NCBI GenBank assembly: GCA_945871425.1
Contig: CAMBVS010000007.1
Span: 1-64,000, forward strand
Direction of reading: 5' to 3'
DNA length: 64,000 nt
Source of the DNA: Rhizobium sp. Q54
Lineage (GTDB): Bacteria > Pseudomonadota > Alphaproteobacteria > SHVZ01
How positions within the stretch are numbered: the first letter of the stretch is position 1; each line of letters opens with the position of its first letter. The position numbers were made by a program, and so were the translations under genes. This document shows positions 49,131 through 55,490 of this stretch, piece by piece. The notes below the pieces were generated by a model. That model was not told the origin of the DNA and did not search any database. It saw nothing but the letters and a program-made list of their open reading frames with translations.

Positions 49131-49924
49131 TGCTGGTCGACAGCCACTGCCATCTCGACTTCCCCGAGCTGTCGGCGGAGCTGGACGAGGTCGTCGCCCG
49201 TGCGCGTCGGGCCGGCATCGGCCTGATGATCACCATCGGCACCAAGCTGACCGAGTTCGACCGGGTGCGCGCCATCGCCGAGCGCTATGACGACATCTAC
49301 TGCTCGGTCGGCATCCATCCGCACGAGGCCGGGGCCGAGCCGGAGGCGGACGCCGAGCGCCTGGCCAGGCTGGCCGAGCACCCGAAGGTGGTGGCGATCG
49401 GCGAGACCGGGCTCGACTATTTCTACGACCACAGCCCGAGGGACGCCCAGGCCCGGAGTTTCAGGGCCCATGTCGGGGCGGCACGGCTAACCGGCCTGCC
49501 GGTGATCGTGCACACCCGCGATGCCGACGACGACACCGCCCGGATCCTGACCGAGGAGACGGAGAAGGGCGCCTATCCCGGCCTCATCCATTGCTTCACC
49601 GCCAGCCAGCTTCTCGCTGAAAAAGCAGTAGATCTCGGTCTGACCATTTCGCTTTCCGGGATCGTCACCTTCAAGAGCGCGGCGGCGCTGCAGGCGACGG
49701 CCGCCTGGGTCCCGGCCGACCGCCTGCTGGTCGAGACCGATGCGCCCTACCTGGCGCCGATCCCGATGCGGGGCAGGCGGAACGAGCCCGCCTTCGTCGT
49801 CCACACGGCGGCCAAGGTGGCCGCTCTGCGGGGCACCTCGATCGAAGATCTCGCCGCAACGACGACCGCCAACGTCCGGCGTCTGTTCACGAAGATCCCG
49901 GCGACGGCCTTCGGGGCGCCGTGA
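49130..49924 (+). CDS. tatD: TatD family metal-dependent deoxyribonuclease
   Basis: A 264-residue TIM-barrel hydrolase. Metal ligands are seen in MLVDSHCHLDFPEL, AIGETGLDYFYD, VIVHTRDADDD, LIHCFTAS and VETDAPYLAPIP. TatD proteins act as 3'-5' DNases in DNA repair and fragmentation; the link to Tat export is historical. ATG 49130 overlaps the metG stop, and the MBL gene starts 4 bases before its end. Confidence 0.95.
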   Translation: MLVDSHCHLDFPELSAELDEVVARARRAGIGLMITIGTKLTEFDRVRAIAERYDDIYCSVGIHPHEAGAEPEADAERLARLAEHPKVVAIGETGLDYFYDHSPRDAQARSFRAHVGAARLTGLPVIVHTRDADDDTARILTEETEKGAYPGLIHCFTASQLLAEKAVDLGLTISLSGIVTFKSAAALQATAAWVPADRLLVETDAPYLAPIPMRGRRNEPAFVVHTAAKVAALRGTSIEDLAATTTANVRRLFTKIPATAFGAP

Positions 49925-50685
49925 AGATCACCATCCTCGGCTGCGGCAGCTCGATGGGCGTGCCGCTGGTGGGCGAGGGGTGGGGTGACTGCGATCCCAA
50001 CGAACCCAAGAACCGGCGGCTCCGTGCCTCGATCCTGGTGGAGGAGGGCGCGACCCGCCTTCTGGTCGACACCTCGCCGGACCTCCGCCAGCAGTTGCTT
50101 TCGGCCGGGATCAACCGGTTGGATGCGGTTCTTTATACCCACGCGCATGCCGACCATCTGCACGGCATCGACGATGTCCGCGCCATCAACGTGACGCTGA
50201 AGGGCCCGCTCGACGTCTATGCGGACGCCGAGACCCTAGGGATTATCCAGGATCGTTTCGGTTATGTTTTCCAGCCGCTTAAGGGCGATTATTACTACAA
50301 GCCGACACTGGTGCCGCACGTCATCGACGGCCCGTTCCGGATCGGTGACATCGCCATCCGCTCATTCCGGCAGGATCATGGGTTTTCCAAGTCCCTGGGT
50401 TTCCGTTTCGGCCGGGTCGCGTATTCGACCGACGTGCTCACTCTGGACGAGCAAGCCTTTGAGATCCTTGAGGGTGTCGATCTCTGGATCGTCGATGCCT
50501 TCCGCAAGCTGCCGCATGCGACCCACACCCATCTGGAGCGCACTCTGGGTTGGATCGAGCGGGTTAGGCCGAAGCGCGCGGTGCTGACCCACATGACCCA
50601 GTGGCTCGACTACAACTGGCTCAAATCCGTGCTGCCGGCCCATGTCGAGCCGGCCTATGACGGTATGGTCCTGGAAAGCCCGTGA
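49921..50685 (+). CDS. MBL-fold metallohydrolase (PhnP-like)
   Basis: A 254-residue zinc hydrolase starting at GTG. The N terminus ITILGCGSSMGVPLVG and metal motif YTHAHADHLHGIDDVRAIN identify the PhnP/RNase Z-like branch; later ligands are RQDHGFSKSLGFRFG and THMTQWLDY. PhnP is a cyclic phosphodiesterase, and this role is possible here. It normally precedes mazG in Alphaproteobacteria; in this genome the mobile island separates them. Confidence 0.9.
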   Translation: MKITILGCGSSMGVPLVGEGWGDCDPNEPKNRRLRASILVEEGATRLLVDTSPDLRQQLLSAGINRLDAVLYTHAHADHLHGIDDVRAINVTLKGPLDVYADAETLGIIQDRFGYVFQPLKGDYYYKPTLVPHVIDGPFRIGDIAIRSFRQDHGFSKSLGFRFGRVAYSTDVLTLDEQAFEILEGVDLWIVDAFRKLPHATHTHLERTLGWIERVRPKRAVLTHMTQWLDYNWLKSVLPAHVEPAYDGMVLESP

Positions 50686-50958
50686 CCGACACCTGGCGCC
50701 GCGCGGACGGCTACGAGGTCTCGACCGACAAGGCCCGGATCGACCTCGACGTGGTCCACGGCTTCCTCGAGACCGCCTATTGGTCGGAGAAGGCGCCGCG
50801 CGAGGTGGTGGCCCGGTCGATTTAGGGTGCGTTCTGTTTCGAGGTCTTCGATCCGGCCGGCGCCCAGGTCGGCTTCGAGGACGTGCCGGCCGGCCGGCTG
50901 ATGGGGCGCCGGGGGCTGCCGGAAGGCCCGTTATCCGTCAATCGGTTAGGTCATCCAT
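50682..50958 (+). pseudogene. GNAT acetyltransferase remnant, nonsense-mutated and truncated
   Basis: A GTG overlapping the MBL stop opens VTDTWRRADGYEVSTDKARI and continues DLDVVHGFLETAYWSEKAPR, the start of a small GNAT family (ligand-binding N-terminal helix). A TAG at 50823-50825 interrupts it, after which GAFCFEVFDPAGAQVGF continues the fold in the same frame. The remaining acetyl-CoA-binding half is missing. The sequence becomes AT-rich from about 50926 and the IS element begins at 50967. The gene was disabled by a stop codon and by loss of its 3' half. Confidence 0.7.
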
Positions 50959-50966
50959 ACGATATT

Positions 50967-50989
50967 GGCAATAACATACTTGACTCAAC
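50967..50989 (+). repeat. Left terminal inverted repeat of element 1
   Basis: Begins GGCAATAACATACTTGAC and ends TCAAC. It pairs with 53239-53261 at 17 of 23 positions and contains the -35 box of the transposase promoter. Confidence 0.75.
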
Positions 50990-51008
50990 AAGCCTGATCC
51001 GGTAGGTT
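50980..51008 (+). promoter_or_regulatory. Promoter of the element 1 transposase
   Basis: TTGACT (50980-50985) lies inside the left terminal repeat, with TAGGTT (51003-51008) 17 bases away. The expected start of transcription is at or within a base or two of the ATG at 51015, so the mRNA may be leaderless; no Shine-Dalgarno sequence is seen. Confidence 0.5.
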
Positions 51009-51014
51009 TCGGTC

Positions 51015-51986
51015 ATGAGCAAGACCGAGCCGACCACCCTCCTCGAAGCCATCAAGCATTTCAGTGACCCGGACGTGGCGCTTGCCACGATGGTTGAGCT
51101 TCGCTGGCCGTCTGGCGTCCATTGCCCGGGCTGCGGCCGGACGGACGTGACCTTCATCCCGACCCGCCGGGTCTGGACCTGCAAGACCCGCCATCCCAAG
51201 TGGCAGTTCTCAGCCAAAGTCGGGACGATCTTTGAGGACTCGCCCCTCGGCCTCGACAAGTGGTTCGCCGCGATCTGGATGGTCGCCAACTGCAAGAACG
51301 GCATTTCCAGCTACGAGGTCGGGCGCGACCTGGGCGTCACCCAGAAGTCGGCTTGGTTCATGCTTCACCGTATCCGGCTGGCGATGAAGGCCGGTTCGAT
51401 CCTCAAGATGACGGGCGAGGTCGAGGCCGACGAAAGCTATCTCGGCGGCAAGCTCGGCAACATGTCGCTGTCCAAGCGGAAGACGTTCGGTAAGGGCGCG
51501 GTCGGCCGGGGCAACAGCGGCAAGCGGGCCGTCGTCGGCATCCTTGAGCGGAAGTCCGGCAAGAAGCCGAGCAAGGTCAAGGCGACCCACGTCGGCGATG
51601 TTCGCGGCGTCACCCTCAAGGGCCTGATCCGTGACGCCGTCGAGCCCGGCACCCGGCTCCTGACCGATAGCTTTGCCGCATATCGCGGCCTCCGGGGCGA
51701 GTACCTGCATGAGGTCGTCGACCACGCCGTCACCTACGTCCAGGGCACCGTCCATACCAACGGGATCGAGAACTTCTGGTCGCTGCTCAAGCGGACGATC
51801 AAGGGCACCTACGTCTCGGTCGAGCCCTTCCATCTTGACCGCTATCTGGACGAGCAGTCGTTCCGCTTCAACGAGCGGACGGACGTGGACAGCGGTCGTT
51901 TCCGCTCCGTGCTACGCTCGGTCACCGGCCGCCGGCTGACCTACAAGGAGTTGACCGGACATGGTGAAGCCCAAGCCCCCGACTGA
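51015..51986 (+). CDS. IS1595-family transposase (ISXO2-like), element 1
   Basis: A 323-residue DDE-type transposase. The N-terminal zinc ribbon reads VHCPGCGRTDVTF with a second half WTCKTRHPKWQFSAKVGTIF. A helix-turn-helix region (SSYEVGRDLGVTQKSAWFML) follows. Catalytic-core segments are GEVEADESYLGGK, TRLLTDSFAAYRGL and TVHTNGIENFWSLLKRTIKG. The frame is intact, so this copy may be active and could in principle mobilise related ends. The last 26 bases overlap the small passenger ORF. Confidence 0.93.
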   Translation: MSKTEPTTLLEAIKHFSDPDVALATMVELRWPSGVHCPGCGRTDVTFIPTRRVWTCKTRHPKWQFSAKVGTIFEDSPLGLDKWFAAIWMVANCKNGISSYEVGRDLGVTQKSAWFMLHRIRLAMKAGSILKMTGEVEADESYLGGKLGNMSLSKRKTFGKGAVGRGNSGKRAVVGILERKSGKKPSKVKATHVGDVRGVTLKGLIRDAVEPGTRLLTDSFAAYRGLRGEYLHEVVDHAVTYVQGTVHTNGIENFWSLLKRTIKGTYVSVEPFHLDRYLDEQSFRFNERTDVDSGRFRSVLRSVTGRRLTYKELTGHGEAQAPD

Positions 51987-52167
51987 ATGCCGGCCAGACA
52001 GGGACGAGGAAGGCGCCGTGCCCGCCGTGGCCGGCGCTAGTCCCATGGCCCGCTTCAAGACGCTGACGAAGCAGCTGCTCAACGTTTCGCCCGAACAGGT
52101 GAGGGAGGAGCGAAGAGAGTTTGTGGAGAAGCGCTCTAGTCGATCCGAGAAGGAGCCGGGGGCCTGA
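51961..52167 (+). CDS. Small passenger protein of element 1
   Basis: A 68-residue ORF whose ATG lies inside the transposase gene (26-base overlap). The C-terminal part PMARFKTLTKQLLNVSPEQV, then REERREFVEKR, resembles small helical proteins often found behind IS1595 transposases. No function is known. Its 3' end overlaps the convergent protease gene by 32 bases. Confidence 0.6.
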   Translation: MVKPKPPTECRPDRDEEGAVPAVAGASPMARFKTLTKQLLNVSPEQVREERREFVEKRSSRSEKEPGA

Positions 52168-53156
52168 GCCTCGACGGCACGGGCTCCTTGCCTCGCAACT
52201 CGACATACATCGCTTCTGCCTTGGCGTGTTCGGCCAGCAACGGCGCAGTTTCAAGCACTTCCAGAATCTTCCAGGCCGGCACAACGCCGTTCAGCCAAGA
52301 GTTTTCGCCGTCCTCGTCGTGGATGTATCCCCAGTTCACGCCCAAGAGCGCCCAGAATGAGTTATTGCGCACGCTCGTACACCGTATTGGGCGTCCGGTA
52401 GACTGCGACAGGAGATCCCGAGAATCCGGTGCGGGACCTCATTTCGACTGAGTAGCTAAGCTGATCTTGTCCGATCGCACTGTTGGAGATCGGACGGTCC
52501 ATAACGCTGATACTGCCGAAGCGAACCGCCGGTTGGTTGTGCAAGCGCCCCTGATGGTTGATGAAGCGTCCGATCATCAAGACTTCGTCACCGATGCCCA
52601 CCTCATAATCCTGGGCCATCGCCCGGGTGAGGAGTTGTTGGGTCGGAATGTGGGAGTGTCGGTGAATACCGATCATCACCTTCCGGAACACGCTGGCGAC
52701 GGCGAGATCATCGCCATCCGGGTGAACGATCCACTGGTGTTGGTCGAGATCGATGACATCCGGCTTCCCGCCATCCACCCGGTTGACACGAGCTATCGGA
52801 GATCCGCCCGACCAAACGACGTGCCGATTACTGACCAAATATGGGCAATATGCCCCGGTCACTTCGCCGTTGATCACAATGGGCTTGCCGATGAAGAACG
52901 CGGTTCCCCCGAGCCTGGCATGGTTCTCGGCATCTTCCGGGGTGGGATATAGGAAGACCACGCCGTCCAAAAGAGTGTCCGCAATCCGTGGCACTTCATC
53001 TCCCGACAAAGAGTCAGGAAGATTGCACTTCCATGCTTGTCGGTCACTGAAGAAGCCGGGCGGGCAGACTGAAATTCTGCGTCCGCGCCACTCATCGGCC
53101 AGACCACACTGGGCGTCTTCGCGCGTCATCGCTACGGTCGGGGCATCGGTGCCCAT
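52136..53156 (-). pseudogene. Trypsin-like serine protease (cargo of element 1), frameshifted near the 3' end
   Basis: The first frame (52362-53156, 264 residues) holds a complete S1 chymotrypsin fold triad: His in YLVSNRHVVW, Asp in GDDLAVASVF and Ser in SRTGFSGSPVAVY. No signal peptide is seen, so it would be cytoplasmic. It ends TPNTVYERAQ at TAA, but one base over the sequence resumes NNSFWALLGVNWGYIHDED and GVVPAWKILEVL. This is the last strand and helix of the same family, open to 52136. One extra base at about 52366-52370 would explain this. A truncated but triad-bearing protein could still be made. A strong AGGAGG site lies 8 bases before the ATG. Confidence 0.8.
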
Positions 53157-53163
53157 TTTGGCA

Positions 53164-53191
53164 ACCTCCTGAAGCCTGAATCCTAGGAGGT
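53164..53191 (-). promoter_or_regulatory. Hairpin that can sequester the protease ribosome site
   Basis: On the minus strand ACCTCCT (53191-53185) is perfectly complementary to AGGAGGT (53170-53164), which contains the Shine-Dalgarno sequence of the protease gene; the loop is 14 bases. Pairing would hide the ribosome site in a transcript that includes both arms. Confidence 0.5.
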
Positions 53192-53238
53192 CTAGCGTGA
53201 CGTGGCAAAAAACCTTGCTAACGCACTGAAATTCTTAT

Positions 53239-53261
53239 GTTGAGCCATCTATATTAACGCC
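53239..53261 (-). repeat. Right terminal inverted repeat of element 1
   Basis: Read inward on the minus strand it starts GGCGTTAATATAGATGGC and ends TCAAC. It is followed outward by ACAATATT, the near-identical copy of the left flank ACGATATT. Confidence 0.72.
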
Positions 53262-53299
53262 ACAATATTTTCCATAATATACATTATGCGATATAGAGG

Positions 53300-53323
53300 G
53301 GCGAAGTTACGGTTCGCATACCC
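53300..53323 (+). repeat. Left terminal inverted repeat of element 2
   Basis: Begins GGCGAAGTTACGGTTCGC and ends ATACCC. It is preceded by the target copy TATAGAGG and pairs with 55351-55374 at 21 of 24 positions. Confidence 0.85.
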
Positions 53324-53358
53324 AATATCGCATAGGTGAGTTATGATAGCCCCTGTTC

Positions 53359-53380
53359 GGCCCGGCTTTACCGGGCCTTT
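53359..53380 (+). terminator. Terminator-like hairpin just inside element 2
   Basis: GGCCCGG (53359-53365) and CCGGGCC (53371-53377) form a perfect stem around CTTTA, followed by TTTAGTT. It lies between the left end of the element and the DUF3800 coding region. It could block read-through from outside the element or attenuate the cargo gene. Confidence 0.55.
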
Positions 53381-53450
53381 AGTTCAAGCGAAACCGCTGG
53401 GGCTCCAAAGTTTGGTCCCCCGTTCGCTTATCACCGGGAGATGGCTCGCC

Positions 53451-54245
53451 GTGCTGGTCTGCTATCTGGACGACAGCGGCAAGAACCCACAAAGCGCATT
53501 CACCTGCTTGGCGGGATATGTCGCGCTTGAGGAGGTCTGGGCCGAATTCGAGAAGAACGTCGAGCCGATCTTCCAAGAATACAAGGTGCCTGTACTACAT
53601 ACCAAAGAGCTGCATCACAGCGACGGGCCGTTCAAGGGCTGGACCGTCGCCAGGAAACAGGCATTCGTCTTCAAAATCTGCCGCGAAATGACTCCGCTTA
53701 TTCCGTTAGGCGTGGCGATGGCCGCGTCGAAGGCCGCTTATCGCGATGGCCTCAAACACAGAAAGTCCAAGCGAACCGTCAGCCCCTATACCCATTGCTT
53801 CACTGTCGCGGTGAATTGGCTCACCACCGACGTGCGCGTTGGGCATGACATTCATGCCCAAGGGCTCGCTTTCATTTTGGAACAAGGGCACCAAAACAAT
53901 GCCGAGGCAGGGAAGCAGATGCACGGCCTCAGGAAGAAGTATCCCAATGACCTGAAGTGTCTCCGGTCGATTTCGGAGGCTCCCAAGGAAGAATGCCGGG
54001 CCATTCAGATGGCCGACCTCCTGGCCTTCTATACCCGCAGAATGACCGCGCTTAGCCCAGGAGAGAGACGCATAGACGGCCCGGACACCTTGTCTGTTCA
54101 GATGGTGAACATCATCCGCGCGAGCGTCCCCCACCGTTCGCTCGCGGCGGAGGTTTTTGGGGACGACTACGCGTCACTTCCCGGAATGCCCGGTCCCCCT
54201 CTTCCGGGTCTTCCGATGCCCCGACTTCGCGGGCCATCTCAATGA
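53451..54245 (+). CDS. DUF3800 domain protein (cargo of element 2)
   Basis: A 264-residue protein of the DUF3800 family, an RNase-H-like fold of unproven activity common in mobile elements. The hallmark YLDDSGKN lies at the N terminus. Other motifs are VLHTKELHH, an EQGHQNN segment near the middle and the C-terminal IQMADLLAFYTRR. The GTG at 53451 starts just before the first family strand (VLVCYLDDSG). An ATG at 53343 would prepend 36 residues encoded across a terminator-like hairpin, so I disfavour it. The 3' end overlaps the antisense small ORF. Confidence 0.82.
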   Translation: MLVCYLDDSGKNPQSAFTCLAGYVALEEVWAEFEKNVEPIFQEYKVPVLHTKELHHSDGPFKGWTVARKQAFVFKICREMTPLIPLGVAMAASKAAYRDGLKHRKSKRTVSPYTHCFTVAVNWLTTDVRVGHDIHAQGLAFILEQGHQNNAEAGKQMHGLRKKYPNDLKCLRSISEAPKEECRAIQMADLLAFYTRRMTALSPGERRIDGPDTLSVQMVNIIRASVPHRSLAAEVFGDDYASLPGMPGPPLPGLPMPRLRGPSQ

Positions 54246-54315
54246 AGCGCTTGGATTGCTCCGGGTCGTCCGCCTTCGCGGGCGGTTTCGGCAGCGGCTT
54301 TGGCTTGTCCGCCAT
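54112..54315 (-). CDS. Small passenger protein of element 2
   Basis: A 67-residue, highly charged protein starting MADKPKPLPKPPAKADDPEQ, followed by SKRFIEMAREVGASEDPEEG. The D-D-P-x-Q-S-x-R-F-I core resembles a small uncharacterised family seen in many alphaproteobacterial genomes. It lies downstream of and in the same direction as the transposase, the same position as the small ORF of element 1, though the two are not obviously alike. It overlaps the 3' end of the DUF3800 gene on the other strand. Confidence 0.6.
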   Translation of the reverse strand: MADKPKPLPKPPAKADDPEQSKRFIEMAREVGASEDPEEGDRAFREVTRSRPQKPPPRANGGGRSRG

Positions 54316-54398
54316 GGGCCGGTCACTCCTCTTTCAGCGGCAGCCGTAGCTGCCTGAAACGGCGCCGTCGCAAGCGCCGCCAATGCGACCTCTTAGGG

Positions 54399-55318
54399 TT
54401 ACGAGTTACGAGCCGTTTCGTAGGTCAGGCGCTTGCCGGCGGCACCGGCCACGGCACGAGCGGTGCGCTCCTCGTCACAGATGCCGAGCTTCGCGCGGTT
54501 GTTCCGGCGGAAATCAAACTCTGCCAGATACCGGTCGAGGTGCTGAGCATCGACATGCTGGTAGATGCCGACCATGCCCCGCTTGAAGACGCTGAAGAAG
54601 CCTTCGACGGTGTTGGTGTGGACCTCGCCTCGGACGTATTCACCCTTGGCGTGGATGACGACCTCATGAGAGGCGGCGTAGGGCGGGAAAACCTCATGCC
54701 GGTGGCGCCATCGGTCATGACGTGGCTGCCCTTGGCGAGGTGCCGGTACATCTCGGCGCCAGCGCTGGTGCCGTCCATGGAAAGGGTCCGGCTGTCGCCG
54801 TTCCGGTCCACCAGGGACATGATCCGCTGGTAGCGGCGCTTACCGTCCGCCCGCTTCTTGGTCTTGGGCGAGTTGGTGACGAAAGTCTCGTCGATCTCCA
54901 CGGTGTGACCCTCGCCGCCGATCCGGCCCGAGCCCTTGGCCGGAGCCATGGCTTCCCGGATGCGGTGGGTAAGGAACCAAGCGGTGGTCATGCTGCCGCC
55001 GATGGCCCGATGGATCTGGCGGGTGCTGATGCCCTTCTTGGACGAGCAAAGCAGGTGGATCACCTGAAGCCAGATGCGGAGGGCCACGTGGCTGGACTCG
55101 AAAACGGTTCCGACCCGGACGGTGAAGGGCTTGCGGCACGCATAGCACTTGCGGAGCCCCGGACGGGTGGTCTTGCCCTTAAGGCGGCCGATCCGCTCGC
55201 ACTCACCGCAGAACGGGCAAGTCGGGCCGGACGGCCAAAGCCGCGCCTCGACGTACTCGAAAGCGGCGGTTTCGTCGTGGAAGTGGGGGGCGGAGAGCAG
55301 CGACATGGGCGACACCAT
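54399..55318 (-). pseudogene. IS1595-family transposase, element 2, frameshifted
   Basis: Starts MVSPMSLLSAPHFHDETAAF (or at MSLLSAPHF, ATG 55306). A zinc ribbon (TCPFCGECERIG ... LRKCYACRKPF) and DDE segments VEIDETFVTNSP and SHVMTDGATG are intact. After MRF the frame degenerates into Ser/Thr-rich sequence ending at 54425. The correct continuation is one frame over: PPYAASHEVVIHAKGEYVRG, EVHTNTVEGFFSVFKRGM and LDRYLAEFDFRRNNRAK, to TAA at 54399-54401. A one-base deletion in the AAAA run at 54688-54691 (TTTT on the coding strand) accounts for it. The last catalytic residue is lost, so this copy is probably inactive unless complemented. Confidence 0.85.
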
Positions 55319-55332
55319 CAGGTTATGCCCAG

Positions 55333-55361
55333 AATATGCGCCTTGCCGCTGGGTATGTCAA
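55333..55361 (-). promoter_or_regulatory. Promoter of the element 2 transposase
   Basis: On the minus strand TTGACA (55361-55356) is a perfect -35 box inside the right terminal repeat, and CATATT (55338-55333) is 17 bases away. Transcription would start about 8 bases before the ATG at 55318. Confidence 0.6.
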
Positions 55362-55374
55362 CCGTAACATCGCC
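55351..55374 (-). repeat. Right terminal inverted repeat of element 2
   Basis: Read inward on the minus strand it begins GGCGATGTTACGGTTGAC and ends ATACCC. It is flanked outward by TATAGAGG, identical to the left flank. Confidence 0.85.
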
Positions 55375-55382
55375 TATAGAGG

Positions 55383-55406
55383 GGCGATGTTTCACTTCGC
55401 GTACCC
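55383..55406 (+). repeat. Solo terminal repeat of a third related IS1595-type element
   Basis: GGCGATGTTTCACTTCGC then GTACCC matches the left terminal repeat of element 2 at 19 of 24 positions, in the same orientation, and is likewise preceded by TATAGAGG. No transposase or opposite end follows in the next 500 bases, so it is the remnant left end of a deleted element. Element 2 inserted into the flank of this older end. Confidence 0.65.
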
Positions 55407-55490
55407 AACGCGCCGACTCCAGTTGGCGCCACCGACTTCGCCCTCCTCACCCTCGGCTAGTTAGCGATGACGTCGCCGGCAGGCGACGCC

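Follow-up and report, generated by a model that had tools for sequence, protein, structure and literature searches.

Next to an IS1595-type transposase gene, and facing it, the window (the 64,000-nucleotide stretch of Rhizobium sp. Q54 DNA analysed here) contains a gene for a trypsin-like serine protease. The arrangement raises the question of whether the protease is carried by the transposon, and what such a passenger would do for the element or its host. The features on which the answer is based are listed in Table 1.

Element 1 moved as a complete unit

The transposon, hereafter element 1, ends in inverted repeats (GGCAATAACATACTTGACTCAACA from position 50967 and GGCGTTAATATAGATGGCTCAACA from position 53261) that are alike at 18 of 24 positions. 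The first-pass annotation had paired 17 of 23. When 25 positions are compared, the match is 18, relative to a best value of 16 among 150 shuffles of the flanks. Element 1 occurs once in the 3.56-Mb genome assembly. Its 8-bp flanks differ at a single base, as was originally described. The corresponding locus of G004, a genome from the same genus (L143), is empty: an intact acetyltransferase gene is followed by CACACAATATTTTCCATAATATACATTATGCGATATA, between genes for an MBL-hydrolase and an alpha/beta-hydrolase, and the locus contains ACAATATT only once and neither the transposase nor the protease. Therefore, the flanks of element 1 are a true duplication, the left copy of which mutated later, and the element was inserted, and hence moved, as a whole. 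The insertion is on the downstream side of the GNAT-like gene at 50686–50958. The MBL gene (49921–50685) is outside the element and is present in six of six relatives, including the one with the empty site.

The assignment to the IS1595 type made from the letters alone is confirmed by the DDE_Tnp_IS1595 domain (PF12762) and the N-terminal IS1595 zinc ribbon (PF12760) of the transposase. The unit indeed holds the transposase, a small overlapping ORF and a facing protease with His, Asp and Ser. The small ORF (51961–52167) has no match in a Pfam scan. The first-pass annotation had not recorded that the reading frame of the protease is broken, nor that a second IS1595 element and a dif site are located immediately to the right.

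Table 1 Features of element 1, the dif-like site and element 2 in the window
Feature	Position	Strand	Description
Decayed acetyltransferase (GNAT-like) gene	50686–50958	+	In-frame stop and deletion relative to the intact G004 homologue (L143 1594–2049)
Left target-duplication copy, element 1	50959–50966	.	ACGATATT; 7/8 relative to right copy
Element 1, IS1595-family transposon	50967–53261		Inverted repeats and 8-bp target duplication
Left inverted repeat, element 1	50967–50990	+	18/24 match to right repeat
IS1595-family transposase, 323 aa, intact	51015–51986	+	PF12762 1.6e-37, PF12760 2e-9, NF033547 1.6e-52
Small ORF, 68 aa, overlaps transposase end	51961–52167	+	Open frame
Shifted-frame ORF, final part of protease domain (LLGVNWGYI...VVPAWKI)	52136–52372	-	tblastn with L065 and L073 sequences
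Trypsin-like serine protease, main ORF with His/Asp/Ser	52362–53156	-	51–55% identity to L065 cargo protease
Right inverted repeat, element 1	53238–53261	-	18/24 match to left repeat
Right target-duplication copy, element 1	53262–53269	.	ACAATATT; final 3 bp shared with the start of dif
Chromosomal dif-like site	53267–53294	.	ATTTTCCATAA-TATACA-TTATGCGATAT
Left duplication copy, element 2	53292–53299	.	TATAGAGG; first 3 bp shared with the end of dif
Inverted repeat, cargo end, element 2	53300–53324	+	22/25 match to 55350–55374
DUF3800 protein, cargo of element 2	53343–54245	+	PF12686 7.2e-10
Small ORF, element 2, 67 aa	54112–54315	-	Open frame
IS1595 transposase of element 2, frameshifted	54425–55318	-	Domain split over two frames
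Inverted repeat, transposase end, element 2	55350–55374	-	Pairs with 53300–53324
Right duplication copy, element 2	55375–55382	.	TATAGAGG, perfect
Solitary IS1595-type end, originally 5 bp from dif	55383–55410	+	Also in G003 and G004

Protease cargo of element 1 and its relatives

His, Asp and Ser are all present in 16 of 16 protease sequences. The model of the L067 homologue (mean pLDDT 81.6) has a chymotrypsin fold, with HtrA/Deg proteases DegQ and MamO as the nearest solved folds (Z 18.8 over 199 residues), a separate C-terminal helix and no PDZ domain. As judged from the sequences and this model, the family is predicted to consist of active chymotrypsin-fold serine proteases. Unlike HtrA/Deg proteases, the window protease and its homologues have no PDZ match in Pfam scans, and a simple hydropathy test of the protease detects neither a signal-like N-terminus nor a strong hydrophobic N-terminal stretch. 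The cargo proteases also differ from HtrA/Deg in an extra conserved C-terminal tail, NPxHREDFxxLLxAA, which matches the C-terminal helix of the L067 model. The window protease has no match in a Pfam scan, and several homologues match Trypsin_2. The PADLOC profile PDC-S45, a predicted single-gene candidate, matches the protease domain of the window protein (3e-7), L044 (1.1e-13), and L045 and L047 (0.001), no curated cut-off being given for the profile. The match of the window protein is thus modest, and the profile represents a candidate family. We know of no element context for PDC-S45.

Short peptides resembling the tail are encoded by small convergent ORFs at the transposase end of other IS1595 elements, with weak scores and mostly at the same position. 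Small stand-alone ORFs with the motif ExFxxLLxxA face IS1595 transposases in L099:4860–5009, L036:2309–2602, L095:4854–5039, L094:4746–4934 and L034:2264–2512, all on the minus strand.

The reading frame of the window protease is broken relative to its homologues; the ORF at 52362–53156 is continued in another frame at 52136–52372, and the conserved tail is missing. This copy may have become a pseudogene, may be recoded or may owe the break to an assembly error, and, given the frameshift, the protein it encodes could already be inactive. The possibility that element 1 in the window is a dead relic, a decayed element in which the protease is a pseudogene with no present function, is evenly poised. 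The frameshift and the lost tail, the mutated target duplication and the frameshifted transposase of the neighbouring element 2 are in line with decay. However, the transposase of element 1 is intact, both parts of the protease are still similar to homologues, and the frameshift is possibly an assembly error, the genome being a draft assembly of 100 contigs. A relic in the window would concern this copy and not the kind of element, and it can be compatible with the explanation of the protease as a mobile defence or stability gene that is discussed below.

Protease homologues convergent with IS1595 transposases are present in G000 contig 12, G003, G010 and G059, each pair lying between inverted repeats that are flanked by a perfect 8-bp duplication. 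The ends of the relatives were missed by a search limited to GG starts and found by an unrestricted one. With only the window protease as query, no locus was found in the genome contigs; the protease alignment was too divergent as a query, and the transposase alignment worked. Scanning by transposase motifs only, derived from these four loci, yielded 44 loci. In one related transposase clade, 18 of 18 loci carry the protease, convergent with the transposase. Three of them repeat the loci of G003, G010 and G059, which leaves 15 new ones; contig ends truncate three of the 18, and 17 have a transposase long enough for placement in the clade tree. Ends matching at 16 or more of 25 positions and a perfect 8-bp duplication surround both genes at 13 of the 15 uncut loci (shuffled probability 0.0007). 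The annotated protease start in L069 runs 12 bp past the end of the element; the true start is likely to be a later one. In almost all loci of the clade, the transposase and protease genes overlap at their 3′ ends by 50–59 bp. More distant relatives have no protease and carry other genes in the same slot. The relatives are mostly metagenome assemblies; a search of a phage collection with the protease as query gave no match, and matches among plasmids are very few.

The first-pass annotation had called the protease cargo and suggested comparisons with homologous copies and with the empty site of a close relative. Both comparisons agree with it: the repeats enclose the protease both in element 1 and in 13 of 15 full-length relatives, and the locus in G004 has neither gene. 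It is practically certain that the protease is real cargo of element 1. Members with passenger genes are known from the ISNwi1 and ISNha5 groups of IS1595. Insertion sequence families include passenger-carrying members (PMC7986276). Passenger-carrying IS1595 elements, or transporter IS (tIS), have the same transposase domains, inverted repeats, 8-bp duplication and a gene inside the ends, which is where the putative passenger is positioned here. In the literature searched, outside of which are the primary description of the IS1595 family and key IS1595 and IS reviews, neither a trypsin-like protease cargo nor a dif insertion was found described for IS1595, and the family was not found named together with DUF3800 or with a dif site.

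The mean identity within the clade is 63% for transposases and 31% for proteases, and the divergences of the two proteins are uncorrelated (Mantel r −0.04, p 0.59). Transposases of L060 and L047 are 82% identical and their proteases 35%; the values for L063 and L064, the latter with an intact protease from Mesorhizobium neociceri, are 80% and 27%. A protease tree that groups these pairs is rejected by the AU test (p 4e-5 and 3e-4, respectively), the pairs having been chosen after the identities were known. The window transposase falls outside the protease-bearing clade, and the window protease groups with those of L065 and L073 with full support in the protease tree. The window and L065 elements share 51–55% identity in the protease and 36% in the transposase; therefore, the protease has passed between IS1595 lineages. 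By its place in the tree, the window protease stems from the cargo of a different IS1595 lineage, and the comparisons make it very likely that cargo is exchanged among IS1595 elements.

The independent evolution of the two proteins bears on the alternative that the protease belongs to the machinery or control of transposition (it might cleave the transposase or a host regulator, for instance) and is not a passenger with an outside function. Such a role would account for the protease in 18 of 18 loci of one transposase clade, for the 50–59-bp overlap of the 3′ ends in almost all of them, and for the conserved tail in common with small ORFs of other IS1595 elements. However, related transposases function with quite different cargo, and stand-alone homologues of the protease occur away from any transposase. 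Together with the uncoupled divergence, this makes a function in transposition quite unlikely.

Insertion beside the chromosomal dif site

The target of element 1 is at the chromosomal dif site, where copies of the chromosome are separated. The sequence between elements 1 and 2, ATTTTCCATAATATACATTATGCGATAT (53267–53294), is dif-like, is the only such site in the 3.56-Mb genome (the chance expectation in the window is none), and is conserved in G001–G006. It is close to the published dif sites of Magnetospirillum and Bartonella (PMC2731167). The assignment of one arm to XerC and the other to XerD is presumptive and follows the sequence. The cumulative GC skew of the 64-kb window, a size at which it is uninformative, has no clear switch at dif.

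Element 2 (53300–55374), with DUF3800 cargo, is on the other side of dif from element 1. The intact G002 homologue of its transposase is 86% identical over residues 1–212. At the same locus in G002 and G006, relatives of element 2 encode other proteins in place of DUF3800; that of G006 has a HEPN match (1.3e-4), and that of G002 has no match in Pfam. Cargo has thus been exchanged in the element-2 type as well. Element 1 is positioned 5 bp outside one dif arm and element 2 is 5 bp outside the other, and 3 bp of each 8-bp duplication fall within the adjacent arm. The 5-bp register is repeated in G002, G005, G006, G127 and G323, with one element end only in G005 and G127 and an imperfect dif-like site in G323. 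A solitary IS1595-type end is positioned 5 bp from dif in G001, G003 and G004, and some of these ends may be inherited from one old insertion. All five members of the element-2 type with at least 66% identity (G000 included) are placed at dif. About 35 other IS1595 elements, including those of the protease clade with defined ends, are not at dif. Therefore, dif placement is limited to the element-2 type and element 1 and is not family-wide. A survey of 385 genomes for dif followed by GGCG found no new occupied site and one other 5-bp match, in G086, without an IS.

Targeting of dif by the element is highly probable. The insertions beside dif could instead be a coincidence or the product of a tolerant terminus region, in keeping with the many IS1595 elements located elsewhere and with the single occurrence of dif, 5 bp and GGCG without an IS in G086. 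However, two elements of different lineages in one genome, as well as those in five other genomes, are exactly 5 bp from a dif or dif-like arm, and the duplications are distinct where both ends are known, which makes coincidence very improbable. Under dif targeting, the transposase would recognize dif, or XerC/XerD bound there, and insert at the fixed 5-bp offset, and dif would offer a conserved, harmless landing site. Most circular chromosomes must keep dif, and the placement of the elements raises the testable question of whether their transposases read DNA-bound XerC/XerD. Elements of the IS1202 family (ISAjo2 group) likewise lie 5 bp away from dif and pdif sites (PMC10132070). The placement is alike; however, the IS1202 transposase is unrelated, larger and Tn7-like, and its dif-targeting group makes 3–5-bp duplications, whereas the elements described here have an IS1595 transposase and an 8-bp duplication and use either arm of dif. 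Insertion at a fixed distance from dif, if shared by two unrelated IS families, would represent convergent evolution.

IS1595-type ends are found exactly 5 bp from dif in all genus members examined. The end at 55383–55410 was considered as the start of a third element and rejected; no third full element is claimed, because in relatives the same type of end stands alone next to dif.

Possible function of the protease

The explanation that fits best is that of a dif-targeting IS1595 transposon that mobilises one cytoplasmic chymotrypsin-fold protease as a swappable defence or stability gene. Taken whole, with the function included, it has about an even chance of being correct. The functional part is just as finely balanced; its support is indirect and comes from the exchange of cargo, the PDC-S45 match, defence-type genes next to stand-alone homologues and the other cargo of the slot. 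As a single-gene defence or stability module, the protease would be quiet until triggered by an invader; the triggered proteolysis would stop the growth of a phage or plasmid and thereby favour keeping the element. A stand-alone protease homologue directly precedes a HEPN_AbiV gene, apparently in one operon (G119, L125:4851–6330), another adjoins a TIR-domain gene on plasmid pAt2 of Agrobacterium pusense (L130:4659–6773), and a third, on an Acetobacter plasmid, is beside methyltransferase, helicase and GIY-YIG genes. The stand-alone homologues in G002, G006 and G204 have no defence-type neighbours.

Trypsin-like proteases have a part in bacterial immunity as partners of pro-nucleases, as in Hachiman, AVAST and Lamassu (PMC12799240). 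The protease of those pairs is, as here, cytoplasmic and trypsin-like; however, it is fused to a defence enzyme and has an upstream MBL nuclease partner. The protease described here stands alone as a single domain with a tail, and there is no MBL pro-nuclease inside the repeats of the window element or of protease-clade elements.

In related elements, the position of the protease is taken, among others, by type II and IIG restriction-modification, a GmrSD-type nuclease, PIN and Panacea proteins, an SDH-type protease and an aspartic protease. One slot (L106) holds an EamA-like transporter, identified by eye, and several cargo proteins of related elements have no match to any defence model. The restriction-modification and the PIN and Panacea toxin-antitoxin-like genes are also what an addiction or toxin module would lead one to expect. 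In such a module, the protease would harm cells from which the element has been lost, or be held in check by a partner that the element also encodes, and the compact, retained cargo suits this. However, the protease-clade elements have no separate antitoxin-like gene, and only the C-terminal tail or the small ORF could serve as one; addiction is therefore regarded as unlikely, if not far-fetched. Defence or element stability is judged the most likely function and addiction the next; a role in transposition is less likely, given the separate evolution of the protease and its transposase.

The best-known transposons with defence genes are large, the Tn7-like transposons among them. PMC8649781 describes these as targeted transposons that carry many defence systems, whereas the elements described here are 2–4 kb long, contain a single transposase gene plus one or two genes of cargo, and move and swap single proteases, restriction-modification pairs and toxin-like genes. 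A broader proposal, somewhat less probable than even, is that a branch of IS1595 targets dif at a fixed 5-bp offset, inserting to the left or right of it and in stacks, and provides a platform for exchangeable immunity modules of one or two genes, with the tailed trypsin-like protease, shuffled independently of the transposase, as a new single-gene defence effector.

Two further kinds of cargo were observed. The IS1595 elements of L079, L091, L094 and L107 have perfect 8-bp duplications and carry complete-looking type II restriction-modification pairs. In L101 (4568–5300), from a Gottesmanbacteria MAG, and L119 (4974–5739, minus strand), from an alphaproteobacterium, the IS1595 cargo consists of a small ORF and, after it, a gene for a retropepsin-like aspartic protease, and the L101 protein matches PADLOC PDC-M08B.
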